DNA of 64,000 nucleotides, from contig JAFKAC010000004.1 of assembly GCA_025766275.1 (NCBI GenBank), forward strand, positions 1,054,001 through 1,118,000, in the 5' to 3' direction. This DNA comes from Lactarius indigo. Taxonomy: Eukaryota > Basidiomycota > Agaricomycetes > Russulales > Russulaceae. The translations under genes and the position numbers were made by a program. Shown one piece after another: positions 14,530-38,580 of this stretch. Position 1 is the first letter of the stretch. The number at the start of each line of letters is the position of its first letter. The notes under the pieces are model-generated. The model saw nothing but the letters and a program-made list of their open reading frames with translations, ran no database searches and was not told where the DNA came from.

Positions 14530-14989
14530 TGTCACGCCACTGTCGGGGCGTGTGTTGGGTGAGTCTGTAACAGGTCCTGCCTAAGGCAAAGGATACTGAG
14601 TTGGTCCGCTGCTGAGCAGAACGGCACCTAAGTCTGTGGGTGTTCCTTGATATAGCTCAAGGCAACAAGGCTTCAGAGAAGAGAACTGTGGTAGAGATGA
14701 GAGGGAAGTGCTGAGGGAACTAGACAGTATATTGACGAAGCCAAAGCTAAGGAAATACAGGGCATACTACAGGGTTTATATAGCTAATGTCCAGGAGTGC
14801 CAGCGAGGCGATATAATGCCAGCAAGACAAATGCCAGCAAAGCGGATGCCAGCAACGCAAAGAAGCGAAGGAAGGCGATATAATGCCAGCAAGACAAATG
14901 CCAGCGAAGCGGATGCCAGCAACGCAAAGAAGCGAAGGAAGAGTGGAGAAGACGGAAGAAAAAAAAGAAAGCAGGGGGTGTTCATGACA
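14530..14989 (-). mobile_element. Solo LTR related to retroelement Y
   Basis: 460 bp from TGTCACGCC to TTCATGACA with a perfect 5-bp duplication AAGAT (14525-14529 and 14990-14994). Read on the minus strand it resembles the Y LTR at 42140-42872: both begin TGTCATGAAC and end GGCGTGACA, and both share the AACTCAG / TTTGCCT / GGCAGGA segment near the end. No internal element sequence is present, so LTR-LTR recombination removed it. It separates the TATA box from the predicted start site of the element 2 5' LTR. Confidence 0.88.
14807..14940 (+). repeat. 67-bp tandem repeat, two units, in the solo LTR
   Basis: Units 14807-14873 and 14874-14940 differ at a single position (a CpG versus CpA). Each contains repeated ATGCCAGCA words. 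Confidence 0.9.
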
Positions 14990-19583: not shown

Positions 19584-20435
19584 TGATACACCCAGCGTGC
19601 CGCTAAGTGTTAATTTTCGCTAATCTAAGCTAATACGACAATATGCGGCAGACCGGCCCAACTGGCCCGTCTAGAGTACTGCGATCGGTCACTCTCGGCG
19701 GCGGGAAGAGCGGCCCGTGGTGATGGGCCGAGACGCCCGAATATTCTAGCTGCATATGTGAATGGTAGCCTACTGCTGCAATCACGGGTGCGGCCCCAGC
19801 GCGGGGTATGGGACGGTGCCTATATTAGCGCGGAACATGTGAAAGCCCCAGAAACCGATCAGGGCCGACATGGCGAATAGCGACATACCGGAGCGGCCGA
19901 GCAGAATCACAGGCGTGGCCATGGCGCGAATAGGCAAAGCAGCACCTAGGGTTGGTAAGGCGACACCCCAGAGAAGAGCGGATCAGACCGGCATGGGTTT
20001 AAGGCAGGAGAGTAAGATGGACGTTCAGCAAGGGAAAAGCGGCGAGGTGCGGATTCGGTCGGCGAGCGGCAGCACATAAATAGCTCTATACCACAGGTAC
20101 AAGAACAGCAACCTTCGGGGAGCCCATAGCGACCTCATTCTATTCATACGCTCATATCCTACTATTCGATTATCTACGACATCTATTCTATTTTGATTTC
20201 GCGAAGCACCCGTGTGTGCGTTTTTGGCTATACCTCGGCTATTCGCAGCCCTGCGTCGTGTTAAGACTACATCGCTCTCACCTCGGTCGGCTTCGGCTCG
20301 TTCGGTCCCGCGTCGGTGCGCCTTCAGTTAAAGTCGCCATCGGCCGGATTATCGGTCCTATATTCCCTGACTTCTCGAACCCAATATCACTCCTTTACCG
20401 GTCGTTCTTGCGTTTAGCGACGGTTTAGGGTATCA
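19584..20435 (+). repeat. 5' LTR of element X
   Basis: 852 bp. By eye it differs from 37729-38580 at 14 positions, every one a CpG to TpG or CpA transition; 10 of the decayed states are in this copy. CT-rich pyrimidine stretches and TATTAGCG-type AT words lie in the middle. Confidence 0.95.
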
Positions 20436-20490: not shown

Positions 20491-22487
20491 ATAACTAACA
20501 TACTGCCGAGAAGGCGAGAACAGCGAAGCCTACTAGAAGAATTAATCGCGGCCGGATACGACCCGACTCAATCAATTCCAGGAAGCTATCCTAGCCCCGA
20601 AGACCTAACACCCCTTAGCAGCCTTAGTAGTGAACAAAGCGACCCCTCATCTAGTCACTCGGGACAAGAAGAAACCAATAGTGAAAAGGAAGTCGACCTC
20701 ATCCTGTCAAGTCACTCGGCTCCGTTACCCGCGCGCCACGGCGCAACAACAAGATCAAGAGCGAAAATCCTAGCACAACAACAGCAGGCGGAAGCGTTAT
20801 CGGCCGAAGAACAGGAAGCAGCCGATCAAAGTGTTAACCAACCAGCGAACACCACAGCATCAGCGACAGAAGATAATAACCGGCAGCCCGGCAGTAGTAA
20901 CCAACGAGCGCAATCGGCGCCGCCTCAGCAAAGCAACACAGCGATAAACCCCGTAGTACCCTCGATAAACCAGAACCCAACTCAAACACAGGCCGTACTG
21001 CAACCGGCCCCAAGACTACCACCAGCAAGAATAAACCAGCCCGTCCCCGCAGCAGCGGTCAACGTCAGAAGGATGCCCCTTGCAGATTTACCTGGAAGAG
21101 GCGAGCGGTCAGCACCTAGTTTTGATGGCGAGCACCCAGAAGAGCTTGGCCGATATTTTGCCGAAGTAGAAGCCCTATACGATAGGCACACAGTAACGAC
21201 CAACGCAGATAAGAAAAGCGGCACACTCAAATACCTTACGACAGCCGCGACCAAAAGAGTATGGAAGACAAGCGACGCGTTAACGGACGTAACAAAAACA
21301 TACGAAGAATACAAAGCCGAGATCTACAAGCTATACCCCGGATCCTCGGAAGACATTCATACAATCCTACACCTGGATACACTAGTAGGACAGCACGCCC
21401 GCATCGGCATAGTCTCAGAACTGGAACTCGGCGAATACTACCGACAATTCAAAGTAATCTCCAAATACTTGATCGGCAAAAACAGAATGTCGCAGGCCGA
21501 GCAGACCAGAGCGTTCATGCGAGGATTACAGCCGGATATGGAACAACAAGTCAAGCAAAGGCTACAGCTAAAGATGCCAGACCACAACCAGCAAGACCCC
21601 TACAGATTAGAAGACTTGCATGATGCCGCAAGCTACGTACTCCAGGGCCGAGCACCGGTCGCGATCTCTAGCATAACTTCGGCAAGCGCGACACTCCCAC
21701 TGGCAACAGAGATAAAGACAGAGATCCAAACCGCGCTAGCAACCGCGGTCACGACACTAGGCGAAATGTTCAAAAACGCGCTAGAAATCCAAAACTCAAG
21801 CGAGAAGGCCCGAAACGCCGGAAATCCTAGGCCGATAGGGGAACCAACCACCAAGTGCAACTTCTGCGGAACGCCAGGACACTTCATGCGAGAGTGCGAA
21901 GTAGCGGCCGAATATATGCGACTCGGCAAGTGCAAGCGTAGTGCAGAAGGGAAAATCGTGCTACCATCAGGCGCCGTGGTCCCTAGGCATATCACTGGAG
22001 CATGGCTGCGCGACCACATAGACGAATACCACAGGCAAAATCCAGGACAAATAGCGGCGGCACAAATGTTACTCGAAATGTCAAGGCCGACGGCATCCGC
22101 AGAAGCGCGAACGGCGAAAACAGTCCGCTTTGCAGAAGAATGCCCAGAACCAGGACAAGCAGGCGTATATGCATTTCGAAGAGGCTTCATACCAAGGATG
22201 GGCGGAAGGACCAGGACCAGGTTCGAACATATGCCAACTGCCCACATCCAGCAAGAAGACTCAGAAGAAGAGCAAGAAAGCCAGTCGCATCGCAAGGAAC
22301 GACCGCCACACCTAGAAAAGACGATAGAAGCAACAACCGAGGTTGCGGCGACAATAAAGGAACATCCATTCGCCAGAACACAAGAAGCAGAACCAATTAC
22401 TCTAGGACCGACCCCGGCAACAAATACGGCGAACGACCGCAAAAGCGAGCGCGCTTATACATCAAATACGGCCATATACGACGAAAA
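20491..22487 (+). pseudogene. gag: gag part of the gag-protease ORF of element X
   Basis: Open from 20491 (after TAA 20488-20490) to the copia insertion. The expected start codon reads ATA at 20494-20505 region (AAC ATA CTG CCG AGA), which may be a decayed ATG; the first real in-frame ATG is 21073. A Gln/Ser/Ala-rich N-terminal region is followed by a helical capsid domain (about 21100-21650) and a zinc knuckle CNFCGTPGHFMREC (about 21850-21900). The frame resumes after the copia element at 29426 without shift, because the duplicated GAAAA is part of it. Confidence 0.8.
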
Positions 22488-22887
22488 TGTTGCGCAGCAA
22501 AAGCCTTTATAGGCCAAAGCGCAGCACGCAGGAAGGACATTCTCACCTTTGAGTAGGTTGAGAGACTAATGAGAGAGGAGAATGTGCACAAGCAAAGTGG
22601 GTGATGTTCTGTATTCGCCTCTCTCCCCACATAGGAGGGTATTTATGCTCTATGGCCCCACCATGTCCATTTGCGGTTAAGTGATGAGTAAAGGCGTCCA
22701 CAATATCGCGTTTTTACACACGCCTAATGTGTTTTGCCCTTCTGAGATAGTCATAGGACTTCTCCTCATCACGGGACATGATACGCCCGCTATTGTACGT
22801 ATCGTGACTGCCTAATATGGTAAATATAGTACAGTAATGTCGTAACTGCTATAGATAAGGTCCTTACGTACTTATCACGTTTCAACA
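22488..22887 (-). repeat. 3' LTR of the copia element
   Basis: 400 bp, TGTTGCGCAG.. TTTCAACA on the plus strand, identical to 29026-29425 by eye. Confidence 0.95.
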
Positions 22888-22900
22888 CTCCCCCTTGCTT
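22888..22900 (-). other. Polypurine tract of the copia element
   Basis: On the minus strand AAGCAAGGGGGAG lies immediately before the 3' LTR. Confidence 0.75.
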
Positions 22901-23405
22901 AGTGCAGCTAGTAAAGCGCATCTAAGCAATGACCTTACATTCAAGACATTTGTATAGTAGGATCGGTAATAAACATCGACCAAGGACGCTTCGATCCTCA
23001 GATGTCAGAGGGATGTATAGGGGATTGGGTGTGGGATTATAGCAACATCCCTTGATAAAATCAAAGGGACGCTTAACCCCAACAATGGTCGTCGATCCTC
23101 GGTTTAGTGAGCAGTTATACTATGCTGGTGATAGGACAGGATGTATGAGCTTCCTTCTGGTAAGAATACCAGGGTTGTTTGACACAAAACCATAGAAGGC
23201 TTAGAGTCGGATGACTCAATAAACTTTTATGATTTGTGAGAGAACAACTCTCGCGGGACAGTCTTCTCAGTTGAGAAGAACAAGTCGTTCGTGACTCATT
23301 TCTTATGTATTCCCTATTACTGGGAAAGAAGAAACGATGTACACGGAGAAGCTACGAAAAACCCTTCTTATTCTACCTCCAACCATAGCGTTGAGCTGCT
23401 CAAGC
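22901..23405 (-). other. 3' untranslated region of the copia element
   Basis: About 0.5 kb between the pol stop and the PPT. No gene or structured repeat seen. Confidence 0.6.
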
Positions 23406-26400
23406 TCACATGGGCGAGTGAAACTCCAGCCCAAGCTGTTCCCTGAATTTTAGGAACTTTATGCGACCCAGATTCTTAGTAAAAAGATCTGCGGGGTTCT
23501 CAGCTCCTTCTATAAAGAATAGTTCTATCTTCTTATCTCGAATTACTTCACGTATGTAGTGGTGACGCAAATCGATATGTTTAATCCGTTTTTCTTGAAC
23601 CGGATTAGAAGATAGAAATATGGAGCCTTGATTATCTCCGCATAATGGAATTGGTTCTAGATTTATTCCTAGCTCAAGAAAGAGCGAACGTATCCAGACC
23701 AATTGTCTGCTTGTATCACACAGCGACATATATTCTGCTTCAGTGGATGAGAGCGCAATTGATTTTTGTGCTCTCGAATTCCAGCAGAATATTCCATTTG
23801 CCATTTTTACTAGGTAGCCCGTAGTGGACTTCCTAGTGACTGGATCTGAGGCCCAATCAGAATCTGCGTATGCTATTATACCACCATCACTTTTGCCGTT
23901 ATAGACTAAAGTATAATTAGAGGTGCCAAGTAAATAGCGGCATATGTAAAGTGCACGCTTTAAGTGGTCCTCAGATGGGTTGGCAGCAAACTGCGCCATT
24001 TTGGTAACAGCATAAGCAATATCTGGTCGCGTTCCAATCATTATGTATAGGAGTGAACCTATCACTTGTTGGTATGTAGCGCGAAGTTCTGGAGATGCAG
24101 ATTCCTTATTAGGAGTAGGATGATACCCTTCCGGTAATGGAGTTGGTACTGATTTGGCATTAATCAGTTTGAAGCGCTGTAGTACTTTCTGAAGGTAGTC
24201 CTGTTGATCAATGAGGATTCTACCCTTAGATCGTAGTATGCGCATTCGAAGAAACTCCTTGGTATCTCCAAGATCTCTGCATTCCCAGATCTTCATGAAG
24301 CGCTGCTTCAGGGAATCAATATGTTTTTTATTTTTTCCGAGGAAGAGGACATCATCAACATAGACAATTACGACAATTGTCTTATCCTCATTTACAAAAA
24401 GACCTGAGTCTGATTGTAAATGTGTGCAACTTAGAGTACCCATTGACTTATCTAGCGCTCTCCACCAAGCGAGAGCAGCTTGCTTAAGTCCATAAATAGC
24501 TTTTCTAAGGCGCATTACTTTGTTTTGTTGACCAGGGATTTTAAACCCTTCAGGTTGTTCCATGTAGAGTTCCTCATCGAGGTCCCCATACAGGAAAGCT
24601 GTTTTGACGTCTAGTCCAGAGATGTGCCAATCTTTAAGCGCTGCAAGCGCAAGCATCATTCGGACAGTCTCAAACCGTACCACAGGCGAGAATATTTCGT
24701 CATAATCAATGCCTTCAACCTGAGAAAAACCTTTGGCAACTAGCCTGGCTTTCTTTCGGCCATCTGACTTTAAGTCAAATACCCATCGGTTCTTGATAAC
24801 CTTTCTGCCTTTCGGCGGGTTAACAAGTTCATAGACTTTGCGATTGCGAAGGGAAGCTAGTTCCTCTTTGCACGCATTACGCCACTCCTCCTGAGAGTCG
24901 CTTGGCATCTTTAGAATGTCTCGATAAGTCCATTCTCGAATATTAGAGGTATCAGGTGCGTCTAGATCTGTTGGTGAAACTGCCTTGGCTAGCAGAAGAT
25001 CTAGAAATTTGACTCCCCCTTCCTGAGCAAGGCGGGTGAGCAATTGCTGCTCTACTTCATCGTCCGAAAGGTGCGGATTATCACCCGAAGCACGAGGAGG
25101 ACCAGACTCGGGTTGCTCAGGAAAATCTCCTGGTACCGTCTGATCTTGACGTGAACGCAACCGAGAGCTACTCGGCTGGTCACCAGTCAACTGTCGCCAT
25201 GTGCGAGTCCGCTCAATGTCACGAATAATCGTAGTAGGAGGCCTATCTCCATAGACATTATCTGGACGAGAAGTTTGTTTCCTTGTACGCGCTGACCTCC
25301 TAGGCTGACTAGGACCTGGTACGGGTTGCGGCGGTAAAGGCGGAGGTAGCTGCGATCCACTTCCTCCAGTAGACATACTAGGAGGAGGTGCCACAGGGGC
25401 TTGTGGAGTGCTCCTCACTTTAGGAGGCTCAGGTGGAGGGTCGTCATCAACACCAGGAGTGGTATCGTCATTTAACAGCTCATCATCAGAAGCTGTATCA
25501 TCTAACTGAGTAACACCTTTGGGTTTACTCCTAATACTGTCCGATGGACATTTAGGAAACAATGCTTCATCAAAGAGGGCTTTGTCCGAGTAAAATAAGG
25601 TATTCGGAGTGCGCATGAAGACATCAGCCTTCATTCCAGATCCCCTACCAAGGTAGATCATAAGTTCACTTTTAGGGGAAAGTTTATTCACCCGGCGAGC
25701 TTCAGGGATATGGACATAAGCACCCGATCCAAAGACTCGAAGATGAGCAATGTCAGGTTTCTCATTGTATAATAGTCCATAGGGGGTCTGCCATTGAAGG
25801 CGACTGATTGGAGTTCTATTATAACAATGTGTAGCATGTAAAACTGCAAATTCCCACCAACTCTGAGGTAAACAAGCATCAAGGCGCATAGCCTGAGCTT
25901 TGTCCATGACTGTACGCATAAAGCGCTCAGCGCGGCCATTCTGCTGTGGGGTATGTGGCGCGGACTGTAGCACTGTAATGCCGGCATCCTTTAGCTGCTT
26001 GAGAAAAGCATCCGATTTGTATTCACCGCCAGCATCAGACATCCACTCTTTTATGGTAGCGTCAAATTGATTTTTAATCAACGCAAGCCACTGCTTTAAA
26101 GCAGTAATAGCGGAGGCTTTATCCCGTAGGAGAGTGATCCAAGCAAAAGAAGTATAATCGTCAAAGAAGACGATAAAATACTTATACTTGTGATATGACG
26201 GTATAGGGAAGCTTTTTAGATCGGAATGAATCCGACTAAAAGAGGCTTTAGCCCTAGTCTCGGAAGGAGGATGAGATGCTGCAGGCATTTTGCCTTGCGC
26301 ACATCCTGGACATAGTTTATCAGAGGTGGGAATTATAATCCCATCAGGGAAACCCTTAGTGTTTTCCTTAGATCGTCTTAGAACCTCTTTAGATGGGTGT

Positions 26401-28649
26401 CCGAGGCGACGATGCATAAGGTCATAATCCACATTTTGCAATGCAGATATATTGGCGTAATCTAACTCAGTTAGATTAGATATGGAGGTATCTAGCCAAA
26501 ATAGCGATTGCCCGTGAATAAGGGGTTTACATTGGACAATTGTTTTATTTTTTCTTAGCAAGTTTATATGCTGCGAATTCCCCAAAACGCGCAATCCTTG
26601 CTGTAGGAATACTCCCATTGATAGTAACCGTGTGCTCATAGAAGGTATGTGAAAGACTGGATAAACTCGTGTAGTTACAAGTTTGTCTGCGATATAATGC
26701 TCTAGCAAGACAGTACCAATTCCTTCAACATATATCATGTGAGCCGCAGTTTTGACAGGTATTCTGTCAGACTTGGCTAGCGACTTATACTCAATAAAAT
26801 CACTAAGATTATTGGTAAAGTGCGCTGAGGCTCCTGAGTCAAGAAGCCACATATTTTCAGTACGCTTCAAGCATTCTGCACATTGACTGAAGTACTCATT
26901 ATGTTCACACTCAAGAAAGTCGAGAAGAGCACTAGTATAATTGTACATTTCAGGCAACTTCTTTACATGCGACCCGAGTACGTTATAGTTAGATCTGCCA
27001 CCCCTTAGATTTTTTGGGGGCTGGACTAATTCTATAACGTGATCAGCACGTAATAGGCAAAATGAAGGAGTAACGTACTCTTCTTCATCGGAACCCCAAT
27101 CCAGGACCTCATCTGGACCGGTTAGAAAGTGTTTGGGGGTTATCGAACGTGAGCCTGACGGGGATATCAAAGTACCGAAGTCAGGGTGTGTAGGAAGCCC
27201 ATGGTCACATAAATATTGCTGATTCCTAGTCCATGCGGCAAGAATTAGCTCCGCAGAAGAAACTTTTGGAATGGAACCAGCGCCAGTAAATGAAGGTTGT
27301 TCCCACATTTTTGTTATCTCTTCAGCCTCAATTGCCTCCGGATCAACATATTTGGGTGTCGGAGCTCGGTTTTCTTTATCCGAGTCCACATCCGATATAG
27401 TCAGATCACTCAAGTCTAATTGTAGAGCGTTTGAAGACTCACTACAATAGGCGGCAATCTCAGAGTCGTCTAGACTCTCGATGTCGACAATGGGTCGAGC
27501 GCCAGCAGGGGGTGCTCGCGTCATGTCAATGTCGAAATCGGAGTCATACTCCTCGTCAATAAATTTATCGATCCGAGGGCGCATCTGGACGTCCACATCG
27601 GCGAAACGCTGCTCAAGCGTCTTCGCGGTCTGAACTGTAGCTGGTACATTCAGCCGCTCTGCGAGCGTCATAGCGGTATTAACGGAGGGAAAGAAGCCAG
27701 GGGTCCTCTGAGGCGAAGAGGATTCGACTTCTGTGCGAGTAGAGACGCCAGATGACCCAATATGGATCACCTTGTGAGAAGTGGGTGGAGATAATGCGGC
27801 TACAGAGGCTATGTGGGAATGCTGGGGAGCGCCGCCACGCGCTTTGCCTTTGCCTTTTCCTTTGCCTCGTCCAGAGCCTCGTCCTCCGCGCTGCCGATTA
27901 GGCTGCTGCTGGGAAGATGGGCCGGGGGCATTGGAAGAGGAAGGCTGCTGCTGCTGACCACCCTGCTTCGAAAAGCGAGGGTTTTCGCGCTTGCGTTTAA
28001 CGGCAGAGAGTTTCTGCGCGTTATGAGCTCCCTTATGCTGTCCGCGATTAGTTTCAGTTTCAAACTGGCCAATAACTATGCCAGAAACTGAAGCAAGTTT
28101 GAGATCAGCGGTTGCAACACCGCTACAGATAATGGGGATAAGATTTTCCCATTTCTGAGGAAGCGCGGACATGGCTATCAAAGCCTGAAGGGGAGGAGAT
28201 ATCGCAAGCGTTGTTTGATTAGGAGCAGTGCCAATAGTAACAGCACCAAGTCGAGAGAAGGCGGCAGCCATTTTCTCGAAAGTTGCTACTGGGTTTTGGT
28301 TAGGATTGAAGCGAATAGAAACTGCTTCTTTGAAATCCTTGTAAATGCGTGGCAAAGAGACCGCTCCATAGCGATCTTGTACAGCATCCCAGAGCAATTT
28401 GGCAGAGGTGCCGGTGACAGCTTGCTGGATAGCAGGAGAAAGGCGAAGGGTAAGATTACCCCTTGCCATTTCATCACTGCGACGCCAAGCAGCTTGAATT
28501 TCAGCGGTGGCAGTGGTGTCGAGAGGGATAGAACCATCGACATAACCCCAAAGACCTTGGGACATGAAGAAGGCTTGCATGGCATTGGACCAAAGGGTCC
28601 AGTTAGAGCCATCGAAGACGGAGACAAGAGTAGTTAATTGAGATGACAT
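23406..28649 (-). CDS. gag-pol: Copia Gag-Pol polyprotein
   Basis: 1747 residues in one frame. Order typical of Ty1/copia: Gag-like N terminus (VFDGSNWTLWSNAM, residues about 10-200), a Gln/Gly/Arg/Lys-rich basic segment in place of a zinc knuckle, an acidic linker, protease LLDSGASAHF near 601, GAG-pre-integrase zinc region (HRRLGHPS.. CPGCAQGKM), integrase with D in IHSDLK (near 811), D in SDAGGEY and E in NGRAERF, a Pro-rich linker, RT (DVKTAFLYGDL, YVDDVLF near 1430) and RNase H (YADSDWAS near 1597, SSTEAEYM). No missing catalytic residue was seen. Start ATG 28649 follows a 364-nt leader. Confidence 0.96.
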   Translation of the reverse strand: MSSQLTTLVSVFDGSNWTLWSNAMQAFFMSQGLWGYVDGSIPLDTTATAEIQAAWRRSDEMARGNLTLRLSPAIQQAVTGTSAKLLWDAVQDRYGAVSLPRIYKDFKEAVSIRFNPNQNPVATFEKMAAAFSRLGAVTIGTAPNQTTLAISPPLQALIAMSALPQKWENLIPIICSGVATADLKLASVSGIVIGQFETETNRGQHKGAHNAQKLSAVKRKRENPRFSKQGGQQQQPSSSNAPGPSSQQQPNRQRGGRGSGRGKGKGKGKARGGAPQHSHIASVAALSPPTSHKVIHIGSSGVSTRTEVESSSPQRTPGFFPSVNTAMTLAERLNVPATVQTAKTLEQRFADVDVQMRPRIDKFIDEEYDSDFDIDMTRAPPAGARPIVDIESLDDSEIAAYCSESSNALQLDLSDLTISDVDSDKENRAPTPKYVDPEAIEAEEITKMWEQPSFTGAGSIPKVSSAELILAAWTRNQQYLCDHGLPTHPDFGTLISPSGSRSITPKHFLTGPDEVLDWGSDEEEYVTPSFCLLRADHVIELVQPPKNLRGGRSNYNVLGSHVKKLPEMYNYTSALLDFLECEHNEYFSQCAECLKRTENMWLLDSGASAHFTNNLSDFIEYKSLAKSDRIPVKTAAHMIYVEGIGTVLLEHYIADKLVTTRVYPVFHIPSMSTRLLSMGVFLQQGLRVLGNSQHINLLRKNKTIVQCKPLIHGQSLFWLDTSISNLTELDYANISALQNVDYDLMHRRLGHPSKEVLRRSKENTKGFPDGIIIPTSDKLCPGCAQGKMPAASHPPSETRAKASFSRIHSDLKSFPIPSYHKYKYFIVFFDDYTSFAWITLLRDKASAITALKQWLALIKNQFDATIKEWMSDAGGEYKSDAFLKQLKDAGITVLQSAPHTPQQNGRAERFMRTVMDKAQAMRLDACLPQSWWEFAVLHATHCYNRTPISRLQWQTPYGLLYNEKPDIAHLRVFGSGAYVHIPEARRVNKLSPKSELMIYLGRGSGMKADVFMRTPNTLFYSDKALFDEALFPKCPSDSIRSKPKGVTQLDDTASDDELLNDDTTPGVDDDPPPEPPKVRSTPQAPVAPPPSMSTGGSGSQLPPPLPPQPVPGPSQPRRSARTRKQTSRPDNVYGDRPPTTIIRDIERTRTWRQLTGDQPSSSRLRSRQDQTVPGDFPEQPESGPPRASGDNPHLSDDEVEQQLLTRLAQEGGVKFLDLLLAKAVSPTDLDAPDTSNIREWTYRDILKMPSDSQEEWRNACKEELASLRNRKVYELVNPPKGRKVIKNRWVFDLKSDGRKKARLVAKGFSQVEGIDYDEIFSPVVRFETVRMMLALAALKDWHISGLDVKTAFLYGDLDEELYMEQPEGFKIPGQQNKVMRLRKAIYGLKQAALAWWRALDKSMGTLSCTHLQSDSGLFVNEDKTIVVIVYVDDVLFLGKNKKHIDSLKQRFMKIWECRDLGDTKEFLRMRILRSKGRILIDQQDYLQKVLQRFKLINAKSVPTPLPEGYHPTPNKESASPELRATYQQVIGSLLYIMIGTRPDIAYAVTKMAQFAANPSEDHLKRALYICRYLLGTSNYTLVYNGKSDGGIIAYADSDWASDPVTRKSTTGYLVKMANGIFCWNSRAQKSIALSSTEAEYMSLCDTSRQLVWIRSLFLELGINLEPIPLCGDNQGSIFLSSNPVQEKRIKHIDLRHHYIREVIRDKKIELFFIEGAENPADLFTKNLGRIKFLKFREQLGLEFHSPM

Positions 28650-29013
28650 TGTTGGTAAATCTGTTGGCTTTATAGTACGTCAGTATTTAGAATTTTTCAT
28701 CATAATACTGAGTGAAATAATAAAACCAGCATTAATCCCTTCGGCTACAGAACGTATTCTGTAGCAGACATTGGTCTTTGCAGACTACCAATTGTCTATG
28801 CCAAAAGAACTGCTCGACCATGTCAACGTTAGACAGTGGGCCAAGTCTATGTACTCCTCTAGAGTACAATACTGGGTCTGTTATGAACCAGGGTGCCTCC
28901 CGGGGTCTGCTCGCTATTTTCTCGTTACCACTCTGTTCATAGATACAGAGGGTAGGAGTGCGATACCACCAGGTGCAACTTCGTCTAGAAGTGCAGCGGC
29001 AAGCCCTGTAACA
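28650..29013 (-). other. 5' leader of the copia element
   Basis: Untranslated stretch between PBS and Gag-Pol start. No convincing ORF; probably contains the packaging signal. Confidence 0.5.
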
Positions 29014-29025
29014 GGGCCCATAACC
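29014..29025 (-). other. Copia PBS complementary to the initiator tRNA anticodon arm
   Basis: Adjacent to the 5' LTR the minus strand reads GGTTATGGGCCC. Its complement GGGCCCATAACC is the anticodon-loop sequence (CAT) of initiator methionine tRNA. This is the half-tRNA priming arrangement known from Drosophila copia and yeast Ty5. Confidence 0.8.
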
Positions 29026-29425
29026 TGTTGCGCAGCAAAAGCCTTTATAGGCCAAAGCGCAGCACGCAGGAAGGACATTCTCACCTTTGAGTAGGTTGAG
29101 AGACTAATGAGAGAGGAGAATGTGCACAAGCAAAGTGGGTGATGTTCTGTATTCGCCTCTCTCCCCACATAGGAGGGTATTTATGCTCTATGGCCCCACC
29201 ATGTCCATTTGCGGTTAAGTGATGAGTAAAGGCGTCCACAATATCGCGTTTTTACACACGCCTAATGTGTTTTGCCCTTCTGAGATAGTCATAGGACTTC
29301 TCCTCATCACGGGACATGATACGCCCGCTATTGTACGTATCGTGACTGCCTAATATGGTAAATATAGTACAGTAATGTCGTAACTGCTATAGATAAGGTC
29401 CTTACGTACTTATCACGTTTCAACA
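29026..29425 (-). repeat. 5' LTR of the copia element
   Basis: 400 bp, identical by eye to 22488-22887. Confidence 0.95.
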
Positions 29426-30229
29426 GAAAAGGCAGCAGGAAAAGTCTACGAAAGGATGATGGAAGCCGAAGTAACAGTGACGCAAAGAGAACTACTCTTG
29501 TTAGCACCAGAACTGCGGGCCCAAGTCAACGAAGTAACAACAAAGCGCCGCGTTGCTCGCGTTAACGCCCAAGAAAGCGTAGAAGACAGTACCGAGGAGG
29601 AGCCGAAGCGATCGACAGAATCGCATATGCCGGCGGCATTCTCGATCGCCAAGCGCACTCCACCGGCCGACGCGACAATAATAGCCGACCCATATGAGGC
29701 GTTACTAAAGGCGCGACCGGCCGATGACGATGGATCGCAAAATACGATCGAAGTCGCGACCGAATCAAATGCCCTACGCGCGATCTTACCGGTAGTCGAC
29801 GGATCAGAAAAGATAGAAGCCATCTTAGATCCCGGCTGCCAAATAGTCGCAATGTCAGAAGAAGTGTGCAACGCACTGGCGATCCCTTACGACCCGAGCA
29901 TACGGCTCAACATGATCTCGGCGAATGGCGGTGTAGATCAATCGCTAGGACTGGCACGCAACGTACCATTCCACGTCGGCGAAATAACCCTCTATCTACA
30001 AGTTCACATACTGCGCTCGCCAGCCTATGATATATTACTCGGGCGGCCATTCGACATACTGACCCAATCCGTGGTGCGCAACTACCGGAACGAAGACCAG
30101 ACAATAACGATCCTCGACCCGAACACCGGGAAAACGGCAACGGTGCCGACGGTACCGCGCGGCAGCAACCGATTTGCCGAGCGAAGAAAGAAGCTGACAA
30201 GCGAACAATCGCAAGACTCGGATTTTTAA
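29426..30229 (+). pseudogene. Protease part of the gag-protease ORF of element X
   Basis: Continues the gag frame interrupted by copia. The retropepsin core has ILDPGCQIV (about residue 120 of this segment) with DPG in place of the common DSG or DTG, followed by the hydrophobic ILLGRPF motif. The ORF ends at TAA 30227-30229 in a run of five T, and the RT frame is -1 to it. The downstream end is rich in Lys and Arg. Confidence 0.8.
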
Positions 30230-33200
30230 GCGTCGATGATTTGGTAACAAACCAAGGAGAGCTCGCAATAATATTAAATTTCAATCAATCAAGTCAGGAA
30301 GCGACAATCGAAGCTTGTGCGCCGCTACCGGCAAATACCACGCAACAAGACATCGCAGCGGCGTACATCTCTCTATGTGATTCAGAAAACCCCAACCTAA
30401 GCACCTACCTTAATACCTCGGAATCTAACAGCAGCGATCAGCCGGCCTGGCAGGAAGGCAAAAGCATCGCCTTCGCCGACGCAAAAGCACCGACCGCAAT
30501 ATACCTCGGCAAGAAATACAAACCCGTAGCACTCAAAATCAGACCAATAGAAACCGAACTCCCAAGCCGGTTCAGAATAATCCGCGAAATAACCGGCGAC
30601 CCACTACAAGACCTACTGGCACTACCCACTAAACCAAGCGAGTTCCGACCGACCGGCCGATATACTAGCGAACGCAAAACGCAATTCGACCTCGCGCACG
30701 CCGGTACCTTCTTATTACCAGAAGAACGCAAGCTAATGCACGAATTCATGTGCATCCAGAATAAAGCATTTGCCTGGGAAGATGCGGAGCGTGGACACTT
30801 CCGCGAAGACTTCTTTCCACCGATCGAAATCCCTACGATCCCGCACAAGCCTTGGGCTCAGCGAAACATACCAATACCACCCGGAATCTACGACGAAGTC
30901 TGCCGGTTAATAAAATGCAAGATCGACGCCGGCGTATACGAGCCATCAAACTCTTCATACCGATCTCGGTGGTTCTGCGTCGTAAAGAAAGATGGAAAAT
31001 CACTGCGCATAGTCCACAGCCTGGAGCCGCTTAACAAAGTTACAATCAAGCACGCCGGCGTCACCCCATTCACTGATCAGATTGGCGAGCATTTCGCCGG
31101 CCGAGCATGCGGCGGCATGCTAGACCTATATGTCGGCTACGATGAACGAGGCTTATCACCAGAATCATGAGATTTAACAACCTTCCAATCACCATTCGGC
31201 GCCTTGCGACTGGTCACTTTACCCATGGGATGGACGAACTCAGTCCCGATATTTCACGACGACGTCACATACATATTGCAGCCAGAGATCCCGGACGTCA
31301 CGGTTCCTTACATCGATGATGTGCCGATTCGCAGACCGGCAGGTCGGTACGAACTAGCCGATGGAACCGAAGAACGAATATTAGAAAATACCGGCATCCG
31401 CCGATTTATCTGGGAGCACTTCCAAGGACTCAATCGAGTAGTCCAGCGAGTCAAGTACTGCGGCGGCACGTTTAGCGGCCTAAAATCAATACTTTGCGCA
31501 GAGGAAATAACTGCAGTTGGACACCAGTGCACACCGCGCGGAAGGCTACCAGAGGTGGCCCGCGTGAACAAGATTGTTAACTGGGGACCGTGCAAAGACC
31601 TATCTGAAGTTCGCGCATTCCTCGGCACTGTAGGAGTGTGCAGGATATTCATACAAAACTTCGCGAAACGAGCCAACTAGCTCATCAATCTCACTCGCAA
31701 AGGCGTTCCATTCGAATTTGGACCGGCGCAAGTTGCGGCCCAAGAAGATTTAAAGCAGGCCCTCTTGAGTTCGCCGGCGCTTCGGCCGATTGACTACCAA
31801 TCCGACTCACCGGTAATACTGGCCGTGGACACCTCACCAATAGCCGTAGGGTTTTACCTCTGCCAGGCCGACTCAGCAATGCCGAAAAAGCGGTACTACG
31901 CACGCTTTGGTTCGTTGCCGCTAAACGACCGAGAGCGCCGCTTTTTGCAACCGAAGCTAGAACTATACGGCCTCTATAGGGCACTGCGCGCTTACAAAAT
32001 ATTCATCGTCGGCGTGCGCAACCTAATAGTGGAAGTAGATGCCAGGTATATCAAAGGCATGCTCAATAATCCAGACATCGCACCGTCGGCCAGCGTCAAC
32101 CGCTGGATAGTATCAATTCTAACCTTTCATTTTGAGCTGCGCCATGTCCCCGGAAAGCAGCACGGACCGGATGGACTCTCTCGGCGGCCAGTACAGCCGG
32201 ATGACGAACAAGAAGAGGAGGAAGAAAGCAGCGAAGAAGAATTCGAAGATTGGATTGATAACCTATATGGCTTCATGCATATGGTTAACCACCCGGTCAC
32301 GGCGCCTCGCACAAACCAACTTCTATACACCATCGCAAGCACGAACATACCAGAAAAGCGACCATATGAGATGGCCGACGCATTTCCATATGAGCCGAAC
32401 TACGATCTAATCCCACGAACGAAAGCGGCCGCGCGAGCCGACGAAAAACTAGCGGCAGCGCACGACTGGCTGACCTTCCTGGAGCGACCGGAAGGCATGA
32501 CAGAACAAGATTATACCGCTCTAGTGCGCTTTGCAGCAAGATTCTTCGTAGACGACGGGCTACTCTGGAAGCGAAACCCGCAGGGGGCTCACCAGAGAGT
32601 CCTGTATCGGCACCGACGCATTGAAGCAATACACGCGGCCCACGACGATACCGGGCACCGCGGCTTCTACGCGACCCGAGCTCTACTAATAGAACGGTAC
32701 TGGTGGCCATTCATGGGCGACGACATCGCTTGGTACGTGCGCACCTGCCATGTCTGCCAGACCCGGCAGACCCAGCAAATCTCAATACCGCCGGTGGTCG
32801 CCACCCCCGCACCTTTATTTGCGAAGATGTATATGGACACAATGCACCTCCCGCGTGCCGCTGGCTACTCCTACATTGTACAAGGCCGCTGCTCTCTGAC
32901 CGGATACCCAGAATTTAGAATGCTCCGAAAAGAAACGGCTCAGGCACTCGGCGACTGGATATTCCAAGATGTACTATGCCAATGGGGAACGCTGACAGAA
33001 ATAGTCTCAGATAACGGCAAGCCCTTCGTCGCAGCGCTCGGCCACTTGGAGCGCAAGTACCACGTGACGCATATTAGGATAAGCGGATATAACTCTCGTG
33101 CGAATGGCATAGTAGAGCGCGCGCACTTCGACGTGCGGCAAGCGCTGTTTAAAGCGGTCGACGGTGAGCAAAACCGCTGGCCGCAGGCAACATATTCCGT

Positions 33201-33849
33201 ATTCTGGTCGGAGCGCGTTACGCCGCAGAAGCGTCTCGGCTGCTCGCCATTCTTCGCGGCGACCGGCGTTCACCCACTGCTACCCTTCGACATCGTAGAA
33301 GCAAACTATCTATCGCCCCCACCCGATTCAATACTAGCGACAACTGACCTCATCGCCCGGCGGGCGGTAGCTCTACAAAAGTGACCGGAAGACCTAGACC
33401 GGCTCAAGGCGAGAGTCCACGAACACCGCAATCGCGCGGCCCTCCGGTTCGAGAAGGCACATTCGGCAACAATTCGCGACTACAATTTCAAAAGAGGCAC
33501 TCTAGTCCTAATCCGCAACACCGCGATAGAAAAAGCACTGAATCGCAAAATGCGGCCGCGCTACTTCGGACCACTAGTAGTGGTCTCGTGAAACAAAGGA
33601 GGGGCCTACATAGTATGCGAACTCGACGGCACACTGCTACACAGCACCATAGCAGCCTTCAGAGTGGTGCCGTATTTTGCCCGCGAATATATGGACATAC
33701 CCGATCTAGAACAACATTTGGACGTCTCGGTCGCTCGGTTGCGCGAATTGGAAGCCAGTGGCGAACCGGATGTGGACCCACGGCAAGGCACCCAGGAGAG
33801 CGAAGACGACGAAGATATACCCGAGGCAGCCGAAGAACTCGACATGTGA
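30223..33849 (+). pseudogene. pol: Reverse transcriptase, RNase H and integrase of element X
   Basis: A single frame broken by stops at 31168-31170 (TGA), 31678-31680 (TAG), 33382-33384 (TGA) and 33589-33591 (TGA). RT: KKDGKSLRIVHS, LPMGWTNS, YIDDVP. RNase H: AVDTSPIAVG, ELYGLYRAL, EVDARY. Integrase: zinc site GHRGFY.. CHVCQ, D in MYMDTMH, D in VSDNGKPF, E in NGIVERAH. The tail is acidic (about 33700-33849). Relative to gag-PR the frame is -1; only a T-run at the stop (T TTT TAA) could serve as a slip site. There is no chromodomain. Confidence 0.9.
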
Positions 33850-34207: not shown

Positions 34208-34994
34208 TTAGACACCTACCCCAGTCTCACCACCATCGTCCTCTGCACCGTCTTCCGCACCAGCAACAAAATAACCTTCGGCGCCAATACCAATGTGCAA
34301 CTCTACAGCGAAGCGATTAGGCATAAAGCGGCGAAAAAGAAATAGGCAAAGCATACCGCGAGGCGAGCGGCCCAGACTCATGATCTTCGGGAGCGACCCT
34401 CGCTTGCAAATCACCGTCAGCCGGTCAGATCGCAACTTCGAGAGGTACCAATAATAGTCCTCGCGCGAAATGTCCCCGGCAGCCCGAAGCGACTCAAACT
34501 CGATAGCGGCACGATCATAAACATCCGGGACCTGCTCGCTAACCAGTGCTCCGGCGAGACACTCCTCAAGAGCAGCACTCTGCGTGCGACATAAGACCCC
34601 CGTATACAGCAACACTCGGCTTCGAACGTGCTCAGTGACCATGGGGAACTCGAGCAGCCAATTAACATCCGCAAATGGTGCGGCCTCGGTCTGAACAAGC
34701 GAACGCAGGGCATATGCGTCGGCCCCCATCTCGCCATCGTTAGCAGCATCCGCCATCAGCCGAAGATAATCCTAGAAGTGCCCAATCACCATGGAATGAA
34801 CAAAACACATAGATTTAGCGACGTACCCACGACCCCTGGAACAAGCGTAGCCACGACGCGATCTGCGGCGCCTGGCGAGGACACTGCGACCAAGTTTCGC
34901 CAAACACAAAGAAACTAGTCAAAGCGGAATCGAAGGCAGCCTTGAGCAAACCCTCGGGCAAGTAGGCATCAGAGTCATGACCGGTATCAGCCAT
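34208..34994 (-). CDS. Antisense gene C of element X (unknown family)
   Basis: Two exons, 34994-34827 and 34771-34208, with a 55-nt GT..AG intron in phase 0, coding for about 243 residues. Exon 1 ends in a Trp codon and exon 2 begins DYLRLM; gene B has the same arrangement (W, then EYAERM), so the intron position is conserved. The middle part (APFADVNWLLEFP, RTQSAALEE, EFESLRAAGDISREDYYW) aligns with gene B. The C-terminal 70 residues are unique and end acidic. No stop interrupts it although the sense pol of the same element has four. Function unknown. Confidence 0.6.
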
Positions 34995-35160
34995 GGCAGG
35001 GAATGTTGGGACCGGCTCACAGCGAACAAGCCGCTTTAATGCGAGACAACTCGCTACAGACTCTTTTCACATGTCAATGGACGAAGATCGACACAAGCGA
35101 CACCATTTAATAACCGGTTGTAGTACGCCAATTACAAAGGCCGGACAGGTACAAGGAACG

Positions 35161-35821
35161 CTACTCCGCATCATGCGATACCCCCTCGGTCGCCGAAGAG
35201 CTTCGCCGCGCGGTTTCGGCCAGTAAACTAGCCCGACCGAGCCGCTCCTCCTGCCACTGATACTCGTCGAAACTGATAACGCCAGCAGCAAGAAGGTCCC
35301 GAAACTCGGCAATGGCTAAGACGTACGGGTCCCGAAGCGCAGATACCCCCGGTCCATGGATAACGTTCGCGATAACGGCGGACTGAGCGCGGCTGAATAC
35401 GACGGCATACCGAATGAGCCGCGACTGGTGCTCCTCGAAAACGCCAGGGAATAATAGAAGCCATTCCAGCTCGGCATGAGGCGCGGCAGCTTCCTCGATG
35501 ATGGTCCGAAGCTCCCGAGCGGACTCGGCGAGGTTATGAACACCAGCACGGGTGGCCATGCGCTCGGCATATTCCTGGAGAAGTTAGGCGTCTAGCAAAG
35601 ACAAGCGAAAAGAAGCGTCGTACCCAAGCGCGATAGAAATCTCGAAGGAAGTCGGCAACATCCGCGGGGCGGCGCTGAAGACCGAACCACCGCTTGGAAA
35701 GCACGGCCAGCTGCGCAATCGCACGCACATACGTGCGACAGTTTTCGCCATCGCTCGAGTCCACCAGACTAGAGTTATTCGAAGGAACGGGCATCGAGCG
35801 CAAAGGGAGAAAACGTTCCAT
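35161..35821 (-). CDS. Antisense gene B of element X (unknown family)
   Basis: Two exons, 35821-35624 and 35574-35161, with a 49-nt intron that has a CTAAC branch site and CCAG acceptor, phase 0, about 203 residues. Exon 2 contains APHAELEWLLLFPG, SRAQSAVIANV and EFRDLLAAGVISFDEYQW, the family core shared with gene C and more distantly with gene A. Predicted mostly helical, no signal peptide or membrane segment. Ends in a short Ser/Arg-rich tail. Function unknown. Confidence 0.6.
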
Positions 35822-36060
35822 CCCTACTCACACCGCAAGCGCGACAAAAGTATCGCCAGCGCCGAGATGCCGGCCTGACGCGGTGGCTGAGGACAGCCAA
35901 ATTAATTTTTTCAGGGGGGGAAAGCGCAAGAAAAAGCGCAAGGCAATCGGCGCTAACTCATTTCAACGAAACGTGGCAAGATTGATACATTCCCAGGCAC
36001 AGGGCAACACGGAAAGTCTATTTACAAATGTTCTACAACGGTACATCGGGCGACCGCGGC

Positions 36061-37547
36061 TTACTCGGCGCCGAGATCCCCGGAAATGCCCGCCCAGTCC
36101 ATTTCGGCATCTTCCTCCTCATACTCGTATTCGGTCCCGTCTTCAATTTCATCCTTGTCAGCCGCTTCGGCATCATCATCCGAGGGCGCGTCAACGTCGA
36201 TCGCTCGCTCCTTACCCTTCGACGAAGCGCGCGTTCGCGGCCGTTTCGGTGGCGGCTGCCTGAGAGAAGTGCCGGGCTCAACCATCATACCAAGATAGCT
36301 GGCCAACTGGAAGCGAAGGAAAATGATATTCTCGTCGATCAATGTACGAGAAGCCATCGCGCGAGCAAGCTCAGCACGATAAAACACGATCGTCGCGGCG
36401 AGCTCGACGCCCGAACAGTCCTCTGGGGGACCGAAAAAGGCGCCGGCGCGAGCGTTGCCAGAGAACGAGCCGGCGCGAGCACTGCCAGACGGCGCGGGAC
36501 TGGGCGAAGTGACACCGGGTGAAGTGACACCGGGAGAGGGAACACGGGGAGGCGTGGCGGCGCCTGCCCGACGGCGGCGACGGCGCAGAAGCGGCGCCCG
36601 AACACACGCGCGATCCCCGTGAACGCACCGCCAGCACGGATACGGCGGCAAACTACCGACAACGGGCGCGCATTTAACCTTGCTCTTGATGCAAGTCATG
36701 CACTAGAAGACAGGTTAGCCAACACCCAAGAGAAGCCGACCAAAACGCACCCGCCGCCACCCAGCGATCAACGTAACATCCATCAATTCGGGCATACGAC
36801 CGCGCTTAACGCCGCGACCGGTCCCCGACCCGGAAGCGACCGCGGGCTCCTCAGAAAGCGCGGCGGCGGCACCAGACGGGGAAGGCGCCGCCCCAGCCGC
36901 ACGAAGAGCAGGAGATTGGATGGAACTCTGCGAAAAGAGTTCTGATAAGCCGAAGGTGGGAGAACCGCCGACAGGTGAAGGGCCGAGTGGGCGCGTGGAC
37001 GACTGCAAGAGCGGCGATGGAACCGGCAGCGACGGCGGCATGTCGGGCCTGGTGTCGGCTGTGAGAATGGCTGCACGGTGGGCCTCGAACTCGGCACGAG
37101 ACAAAGTACCAGCCTCCACCTGTCGGCGGTACTCGGCGAGCCACGCATAGTCACCGGGTATATCGGCCGACCCAGGCGGAACCGACGGCGCCAACAAGGA
37201 GCCCAGCCGCTCCTCGCTCCCAGCGACAAGACGAGGCGAATGTTCAAGCCAAGCCACCGAAGCGAACGGAAGCAGGCAGCTGCGTGCAGCGCCAACAAGA
37301 GCGTCCACCTCCTGATCGACGCCAACATCTACGCCGGCCTCGATCGCCGACGAAACGACAAGTTCCTGTCAACCCGATCAACCACGATCAGCACGGATCA
37401 AAGCCGACAAGTACTCACCAGAGCCGACGAAAAGGTCTGCGCTAGCTCGTCGGCCGACGTGGCATCCAAATCGGTCCTCTCAAACTCGGGGCGAAGATGC
37501 AAGAGCGACAACTTAGCGAACGAAAAAACACAGGATTTTTGCGACAT
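36061..37547 (-). CDS. Antisense gene A of element X: Zn2Cys6-type zinc-cluster protein
   Basis: Three exons, 37547-37419, 37365-36751 and 36702-36061, introns of 53 and 48 nt, all phase 0; the first donor is GTGAGT and the second intron has a CTAAC branch site. Product about 461 residues. Exon 2 carries a core like genes B and C (LLPFASVAWLEHSPR, YRRQVEAGTLSRAEFEAH). Splicing exon 2 to exon 3 creates the pattern C-X2-C-X6-C-X11-C-X2-C-X6-C (CMTCIKSKVKC.. CWRCVHGDRAC), the spacing of fungal Zn(II)2Cys6 binuclear clusters, followed by an Arg stretch. The C-terminal part has a basic PPPKRPRTRASSKGKERA segment, likely a nuclear signal, and a strongly acidic tail. A DNA-binding regulator is the natural inference. 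Confidence 0.65.
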
Positions 37548-37718
37548 GTTAGAAGAATCGACTCAAGGAAGAAAAACGGCGAAAGGACGACGATAACAAT
37601 ATCGGCGACAATGTATGGCGGACTCGTGGACCATTCTCACGCTACCGGCACCGCCCGACGACTTCTACCACGCGATGCTATTGCGCTGACTGACTGAGGA
37701 CAGTCAGAAGCTCAGCCA

Positions 37719-37728
37719 AGAGGGGAAA
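37719..37728 (+). other. Polypurine tract of element X
   Basis: AGAGGGGAAA directly before the 3' LTR. Confidence 0.75.
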
Positions 37729-38580
37729 TGATACACCCGGCGCGCCGCTAAGCGTTAATTTTCGCTAATCTAAGCTAATACGACAATATGCGGCAGACCG
37801 GCCCAACCGGCCCGTCTAGAGTACTGCGATCGGTCACTCTCGGCGGCGGGAAGAGCGGCCCATGGTGATGGGCCGAGACGCCTGAATATTCTAGCCGCAT
37901 ATGCGAACGGTAGCCTACTGCTGCAATCACGGGTGCGGCCCCAGCGCGGGGTACGGGACGGTGCCTATATTAGCGCGGAACATGTGAAAGCCCCAGAAAC
38001 CGATCAGGGCCGACATGGCGAATAGCGACATACCGGAGCGGCCGAGCAGAATCACAGGCGCGGCCATGGCGCGAATAGGCAAAGCAGCACCTAGGGTTGG
38101 TAAGGCGACACCCCAGAGAAGAGCGGATCAGACCGGCATGGGTTTAAGGCAGGAGAGTAAGATGGACGTTCAGCAAGGGAAAAGCGGCGAGGTGCGGATT
38201 CGGTCGGCGAGCGGCAGCACATAAATAGCTCTATACCACAGGTACAAGAACAGCAACCTTCGGGGAGCCCATAGCGACCTCATTCTATTCATACGCTCAT
38301 ATCCTACTATTCGATTATCTACGACATCTATTCTATTTTGATTTCGCGAAGCACCCGTGTGTGCGTTTTTGGCTATACCTCGGCTATTCGCAGCCCTGCG
38401 TCGTGTTAAGACTACATCGCTCTCACCTCGGTCGGCTTCGGCTCGTTCGGTCCCGCGTTGGTGCGCCTTCGGTTAAAGTCGCCATCGGCTGGATTATCGG
38501 TCCTATATTCCCTGACTTCTCGAACCCAATATCACTCCTTTACCGGTCGTTCTTGCGTTTAGCGACGGTTTAGGGTATCA
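37729..38580 (+). repeat. 3' LTR of element X
   Basis: 852-bp copy of 19584-20435. By position it would also serve as the upstream region of antisense gene A, read from the opposite strand. Confidence 0.95.

Follow-up and report, generated by a model that had tools for sequence, protein, structure and literature searches.

Antisense genes are already known in LTR retrotransposons, from Retand in plants and Boty in fungi, a gene named brtn having reportedly been found in Boty elements by Zhao et al. in 2011. In Retand, a plant Ty3/gypsy element, antisense TRP28 genes lie in a long region between pol and the 3' LTR and are conserved over families, and DNA binding and regulation have been proposed for their products (accessible parts of PMC11963269). 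In Botrytis, the element Boty, or BcGypsy1, carries the antisense gene brtn (accessible parts of PMC7264820, PMC8365987 and PMC4227169), and the Boty element with brtn has a chromodomain (PMC4227169, same parts). Two of these papers (PMC7264820, a review of plant antisense genes, and PMC11963269), in their accessible portions, give the function of such genes in LTR elements as unknown. A sequence-only reading of the locus described here had held that no fungal element with a spliced antisense gene family was known. The presence of brtn in Boty weakens this view. A literature search at the level of titles and the beginnings of abstracts turned up neither an antisense array with introns nor an antisense Zn2Cys6 gene in any fungal element, which does not prove absence. 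The word 'antisense' is also missing from the main text, in its accessible form, of a survey of fungal LTR elements (PMC3248453).

We analysed a window of 64,000 nucleotides, the whole stretch of DNA under study, on contig C226 of a 90.3-Mb genome (G000). The window contains element X, a Ty3/gypsy element with LTRs of 852 nt (Table 1), which has ccgg at both outer edges and is inserted into another repeat, its flanks forming one continuing inverted-repeat match. A tandem pair of 67-nt repeats, 99% identical, occupies positions 14806-14939 of the window. The pol domains of X follow the Ty3/gypsy order of protease, reverse transcriptase, RNase H and integrase: a protease match covers 29393-30229, RNase H and integrase zinc-binding matches fall within 31681-33384, and the reverse transcriptase was placed by its YIDD motif in 31171-31680, a piece without a domain match or scan. 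The pol of this copy has two in-frame stops (31168-31170 and 31678-31680), and the C-terminus of integrase shifts to another frame and ends at ~33848; in other copies the pol frames are open, up to 1272 amino acids. A nested Copia element (22488-29325, minus strand), with an ORF of 1757 amino acids, sits at the end of gag. Its terminal repeats, 22488-22787 and 29026-29325, are identical and at least 300 nt long.

Between pol and the 3' LTR, three genes, A, B and C, are predicted on the opposite strand, and their sequences make it almost certain that they are real and selected paralogous genes with introns. The three models put forward in the sequence-only reading were reproduced, with all introns GT-AG and in phase 0. 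That reading also described all introns as 48-55 nt long and in phase 0, which is true of the modelled introns but perhaps not of a likely second intron of C (34356-34303, 54 nt), which would be in phase 1. It has a branch-like CTAAT, and its splice sites are present in 21 of 21 covering rows of the copy alignments. Since the frame survives removal of this second intron, both forms of C are possible proteins. For B, an alternative start at the second methionine (35794) is pointed to by Lactarius proteins, and translation may begin there.

Table 1. Features of element X, in positions of the window
Feature	Position	Strand	Details or basis
5' LTR (TGATAC...GTATCA)	19584..20435	+	838/852 match to 3' LTR
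gag, split by nested Copia	20491..22487	+	ORF; zinc-knuckle/gag matches all under cut-off
Protease to integrase, 3' of Copia insert	29393..33848	+	ORFs, domain matches
Gene C, one-intron model	34208..34994; exons 34994-34827, 34771-34208	-	243 aa; intron 55 nt
Gene C, two-intron model	exons 34994-34827, 34771-34357, 34302-34208	-	225 aa
Gene B	35161..35821; exons 35821-35624, 35574-35161	-	203 aa; intron 49 nt
Dyad upstream of B, TGGCT-GAGGAC-AGCCA	35884..35899		~60 nt before B start codon
T-run and polypurine tract beside B dyad, possible internal PPT	35907..35927	+	sequence, copies
Gene A	36061..37547; exons 37547-37419, 37365-36751, 36702-36061	-	461 aa; introns 53 and 48 nt
Zn2Cys6-like cluster of A, C-X2-C-X6-C-X11-C-X2-C-X6-C	36604..36702	-	cysteine spacing
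Dyad upstream of A, CTGACT-GAGGAC-AGTCAG	37690..37707		~140 nt before A ATG, 21 nt before 3' LTR
3' polypurine tract	37717..37728	+	sequence; directly before 3' LTR
3' LTR	37729..38580	+	LTR pair comparison

The kinship of B and C proposed earlier was confirmed by whole-genome searches, in which the two matched each other at E 1e-14 to 2e-14, and a profile of proteins containing both A and B matched the profile of C proteins across the B part (96.7%, E 4e-10). The B/C core was said to be present more weakly in A, and the N-terminal domain of A indeed aligned with the B/C profile in hhalign (82%, E 1e-05, 136 columns). The introns of B and C interrupt the same codon, as had been observed: FYRAW/EY in B and FQGSW/DY in C (the slash marks the intron) fall in one alignment column, in phase 0. 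Intron 1 of A (FSSAL/EL), also in phase 0, occupies the same aligned column, a point that is new in our alignment and absent from the earlier note. The simplest account would be that the array arose by duplication of one antisense gene. Searches with the B/C profile gave a best match at only E 0.24 or worse, and an AlphaFold model of a C homologue was too poor to use.

Fragments of the three genes, as well as pol DNA, served as queries against the genome, and split copies were counted once. Twenty-three close copies with pol (at least 90% identity) were found, and the array, tested as a case of the antisense additional ORFs of LTR retrotransposons (aORF-3R), is kept in 21 of them; the homologues that were to be sought in other copies of X are thus there. 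In every one of the 21 array copies, C lies 830-859 nt from where the pol query ends. Full elements measure ~12.0 kb by LTR matches (for example, C244:334084-346122). In the C35 copy pol is present and the array is gone, through one deletion joining what are window positions 34245 and 37578. At this locus (C35:181600-190400; L064, 1-1071) a nested LTR-type element separates the deletion junction from the rest of pol. Another nested element cuts in just after pol in the C151 copy.

In the alignments of these copies, introns 1 and 2 of A keep GT...AG in 21 of 21 rows, as do the B intron in all 21 covering rows and the C intron in all 20 full-length rows. A has an uninterrupted frame in 12 of 21 rows, B in 17 of 20 and C in 13 of the 20 full-length rows, and ten copies have all three open; in these counts B of C223 and C of C79, split by insertions into two partial rows each, are excluded from n=20, A of C79, which holds an insert, is scored as broken, and C is scored on the one-intron model. 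Open A copies differ from one another in coding length by 15 or 30 nt, and every such difference falls at ~36507-36521, where SPGVT codons are repeated in exon 3.

Selection was assessed from distinct variants across the copies, compared with 400 simulations that kept base and CpG context and took variants as independent, which those of related copies are not. Scaled to the neutral expectation, the amino-acid/silent ratio was 0.64 for A (none of 400 runs as low), 0.67 for B (3 of 400) and 0.74 for C (13 of 400). The dN/dS-type test suggested earlier thus gives ratios below neutral, with frames largely preserved. The other two frames of the gene strand gave 1.12-1.41. On the pol strand, one mirror frame is also low (0.69, 0.67 and 0.83), but with 5, 6 and 9 stops; low ratios are expected there from the third positions shared with the gene frame. 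For a 1.4-kb piece of pol in eight copies the ratio was 0.12-0.43; in the same eight copies it was 0.35-0.60 for A, 0.48-1.23 for B and 0.30-0.91 for C, so the antisense genes are less constrained than pol. B and C are modestly constrained, with values as high as 1.23 (B) and 0.91 (C) in single pairs. By these comparisons, coding constraint is strong on A and moderate on B and C, and weaker than that on pol for all three.

Chance open reading frames were considered and ruled out by the recurring splice sites, the ratios below neutral in the gene frames and the higher values in the other frames. It is also extremely unlikely that the antisense RNA matters and not the protein, through dsRNA-mediated silencing or interference: an antisense-RNA role has been proposed for plant elements (accessible part of PMC7264820), but RNA alone sits badly with codon-level constraint, with the frame-keeping indels in A and with the conserved splice sites.

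The array also has three divergent relatives in the same genome. In the one at C79:504-506k, genes A', B' and C' stand in the same order. A' is 36% identical to A and has identical cysteine spacing; intron 1 and the intron that precedes the cluster's first cysteine sit at the corresponding sites, and there is one extra intron. In B' and C' an intron is readable after the matching tryptophan, and C' is interrupted. The intron comparison covers this relative only, C270 and C277 holding remnants. Only at C270 does pol lie beside the antisense remnants. At C277 the genes are ~11 kb from the closest pol match and on pol's own strand, and at C79:503-506k the closest pieces of pol are ~45 kb off.

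Homologues beyond the window element, which the sequence-only reading had proposed to look for, were found as annotated Lactarius proteins matching A, B and most of C. The protein searches scored ~8000 candidates each, a scope that bounds the observation that matches were from Lactarius only. A matched 13 annotated proteins (36-51% identity, 50-100% query coverage) and C matched six (57-72% identity, 71-89% coverage). Six of the 13 matches to A extend into B, P0002, P0010, P0011 and P0012 largely and P0001 and P0008 partly. Five of the six C proteins read through the position of the intron without a break (GSW-DYL or GLW-DYL). P0018, the remaining one, carries 18 additional residues at precisely this point, as expected from a partly retained intron, Lactarius introns being read here from protein sequences alone. 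Near-consecutive locus tags and equal-size longest contigs suggest that the genes for the A and C proteins P0004/P0015, P0010/P0017 and P0005/P0019 are neighbours, as do equal-size contigs alone for P0013/P0014 and P0007/P0016. A search with the pol protein gave no Lactarius name in the best 120 of 783 matches, most of which carry no species name. Judged by their sequences, these Lactarius proteins, annotated as hypothetical, are related to the element-borne genes.

The presence of introns inside a retroelement, together with a zinc cluster of fungal type, points to a host-gene origin, and A, B and C might be captured passengers, kept for the sake of the host or not at all. We consider this very unlikely, as the searches of the own genome listed only copies of the lineage (judged by pol or by the dyads described below), divergent relatives have the array too, each of the three genes has Lactarius kin, and conservation within element copies is deep.

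Zn2Cys6 proteins have the cysteine consensus C-X2-C-X6-C-X5-12-C-X2-C-X6-8-C, and the spacing in A agrees with it (PF00172). The six-cysteine cluster, noticed in the sequence-only reading, is present in 21 of 21 copies (two with an internal stop), in A' and in 7 of the 13 Lactarius proteins; in the models of the other six a part of it is missing. The idea that splicing creates the cluster had to be abandoned, as all six cysteines lie within exon 3 and splicing only links the N-terminal domain to them. The Pfam gathering score is not reached: at the cysteines of P0003, Zn_clus scored 16.2 against 21 bits, with E 0.011 (the best E, n=13). At E up to 10, Zn_clus is listed for 8 of the 13 Lactarius proteins, and at E up to 5 it is absent from the listing for A of the window. 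The cluster is followed by an arginine-rich stretch, a basic PPKRPRTRASSKGK patch and an acidic tail with a tryptophan motif near its end, the net charge being +13 for the cluster and basic region, +7 for the basic patch and -20 for the tail. The tryptophan motif is readable in A and present in 11 of the 13 Lactarius proteins, and was not found in A' or the other two. Two AlphaFold models were poor overall (mean pLDDT 46.8 and 41.3). That of P0003 has a helical N-terminal part (pLDDT 68-89 in ten-residue blocks over residues 1-90, and ~80-86 near 121-140) and low confidence elsewhere, cluster included. With a model of an A homologue, Foldseek found nothing in the PDB that reached E 0.001, and a PDB sequence search with a Lactarius cluster peptide gave 0 matches. 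Taken together, the sequence features suggest that A is probably a DNA-binding regulator.

The three proteins might instead act elsewhere in the life cycle, as nucleic-acid or integrase-targeting cofactors, with the cluster of A contacting host chromatin or genomic RNA. Such a role would be consistent with the conservation of B and C, which have no DNA-binding part, alongside A both at C79 and among the Lactarius proteins, and with the absence of a recognised fold or solved relative of the shared domain in Foldseek and profile searches. The layout of A, with its cluster, basic patch and acidic tail, fits a transcription regulator better, and we regard a function elsewhere as unlikely.

Two dyad sites lie upstream of A and of B (Table 1). 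The A-side dyad can be written CTGACT-GRGGAC-AGTCAG, and the B-side dyad, with its core in common with the A-side dyad, GCTGRGGACAGCC; the arms differ between the A and B sites of the window yet remain complementary. The exact A-side 18-mer has 24 matches in the genome, namely 20 of the 21 array copies, C35 and the three divergent relatives, and the C271 array copy has this dyad with one change. The B-side 16-mer around the core likewise has 24 (21 array copies and the three divergent relatives). Reversed-pattern controls for both dyads gave 0 genome matches. Between pol and the LTR of the window element, a search allowing one mismatch located the core at the two dyads and nowhere else; with two mismatches allowed, it was not found in the 5' LTR and leader of X, nor upstream of C in the window. 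The usual Zn2Cys6 half-site is a CGG triplet, and the dyads contain none.

Each dyad is followed, in the sense of pol, by a polypurine tract, and this makes a role in reverse transcription a serious rival to antisense control. The dyads and adjoining tracts would then be signals for the 3' and an internal polypurine tract, a reading compatible with A, B and C being real genes. The internal tract comes with a T-run, and its counterpart at C79 looks like the 3' polypurine tract of that family (ggggaggaga in both). On the other side, the dyads of the window and of the C79 relative, and thus of two families, also lie ~60-160 nt before antisense start codons, a position compatible with either reading. 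We see reverse-transcription signals as a possible explanation of the dyads, short of a probable one. The tract at 35907-35927, between A and B, is kept in the copies and has an altered form in the divergent relatives.

On balance we lean, by a little, towards reading A, B and C as a self-encoded antisense regulator module of this Ty3/gypsy lineage. Its transcription would run leftward, starting at promoters next to the 3' LTR. A would be the nuclear DNA-binding member of the module, as suggested by the cluster, the arginine-rich stretch, the basic patch and the acidic tail ending in the tryptophan motif, and B and C, which lack the cluster, would associate with A via the domain that all three share and modulate it. 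The dyads would serve as operator or promoter sites, through which A might control the module that encodes it and perhaps the adjacent LTR as well, in the manner proposed for the antisense-encoded HBZ in HTLV-1. That A acts through the dyads is a tentative proposal. Equally speculative is the full circuit of three proteins, in which a Zn2Cys6 factor and two partners without a DNA-binding part would determine, via two element-specific dyad operators beside the antisense promoters, how antisense and LTR transcription are balanced. The sequences directly show the open frames under selection, the conservation of splice sites, the paralogy, the cluster and the cis sites; we infer that the genes are transcribed and their RNAs spliced in vivo, that A reaches the nucleus, that the three proteins pair, and that the dyads or the LTR are bound.

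Compared with the described systems, X resembles Retand in having antisense genes between pol and the 3' LTR, and differs from it in that there are three intron-bearing paralogues, one of which encodes a Zn2Cys6-like cluster. The accessible main text of the Retand TRP28 paper (PMC11963269) does not contain the word 'intron'. The TRP28 domain, PF04195, appeared among the matches of none of the three genes at E up to 5, with filters that drop most weak matches. Boty, like X, is a fungal LTR element with an extra antisense gene, but has one named antisense gene where X has three, a comparison made by description in the accessible sources. New here are the codon position that intron 1 of A shares with the B and C introns, the likely second intron of C and the two dyad sites with a shared core.

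A shares with the GAL4-type Zn2Cys6 regulators (PF00172) the six-cysteine spacing, K-x-K-C after the first pair and a basic stretch after the cluster, and differs from them in scoring under the Pfam cut-off, in having its cluster mid-protein behind a domain of unknown kind, and in being encoded antisense in a retroelement. HBZ of HTLV-1 is an antisense nuclear regulator made beside the 3' LTR, and is a bZIP protein. A, in the role proposed here, would likewise be an antisense-encoded nuclear regulator beside the 3' LTR, with a Zn2Cys6-like cluster in place of a bZIP. HBZ is mentioned in the accessible part of PMC11963269. Set beside these systems, the X lineage shows that an LTR element lineage can maintain an array of intron-bearing paralogous genes, and it offers a compact and conserved case of antisense genes whose recognisable protein motif and candidate binding sites make the question of function directly testable in a fungus.
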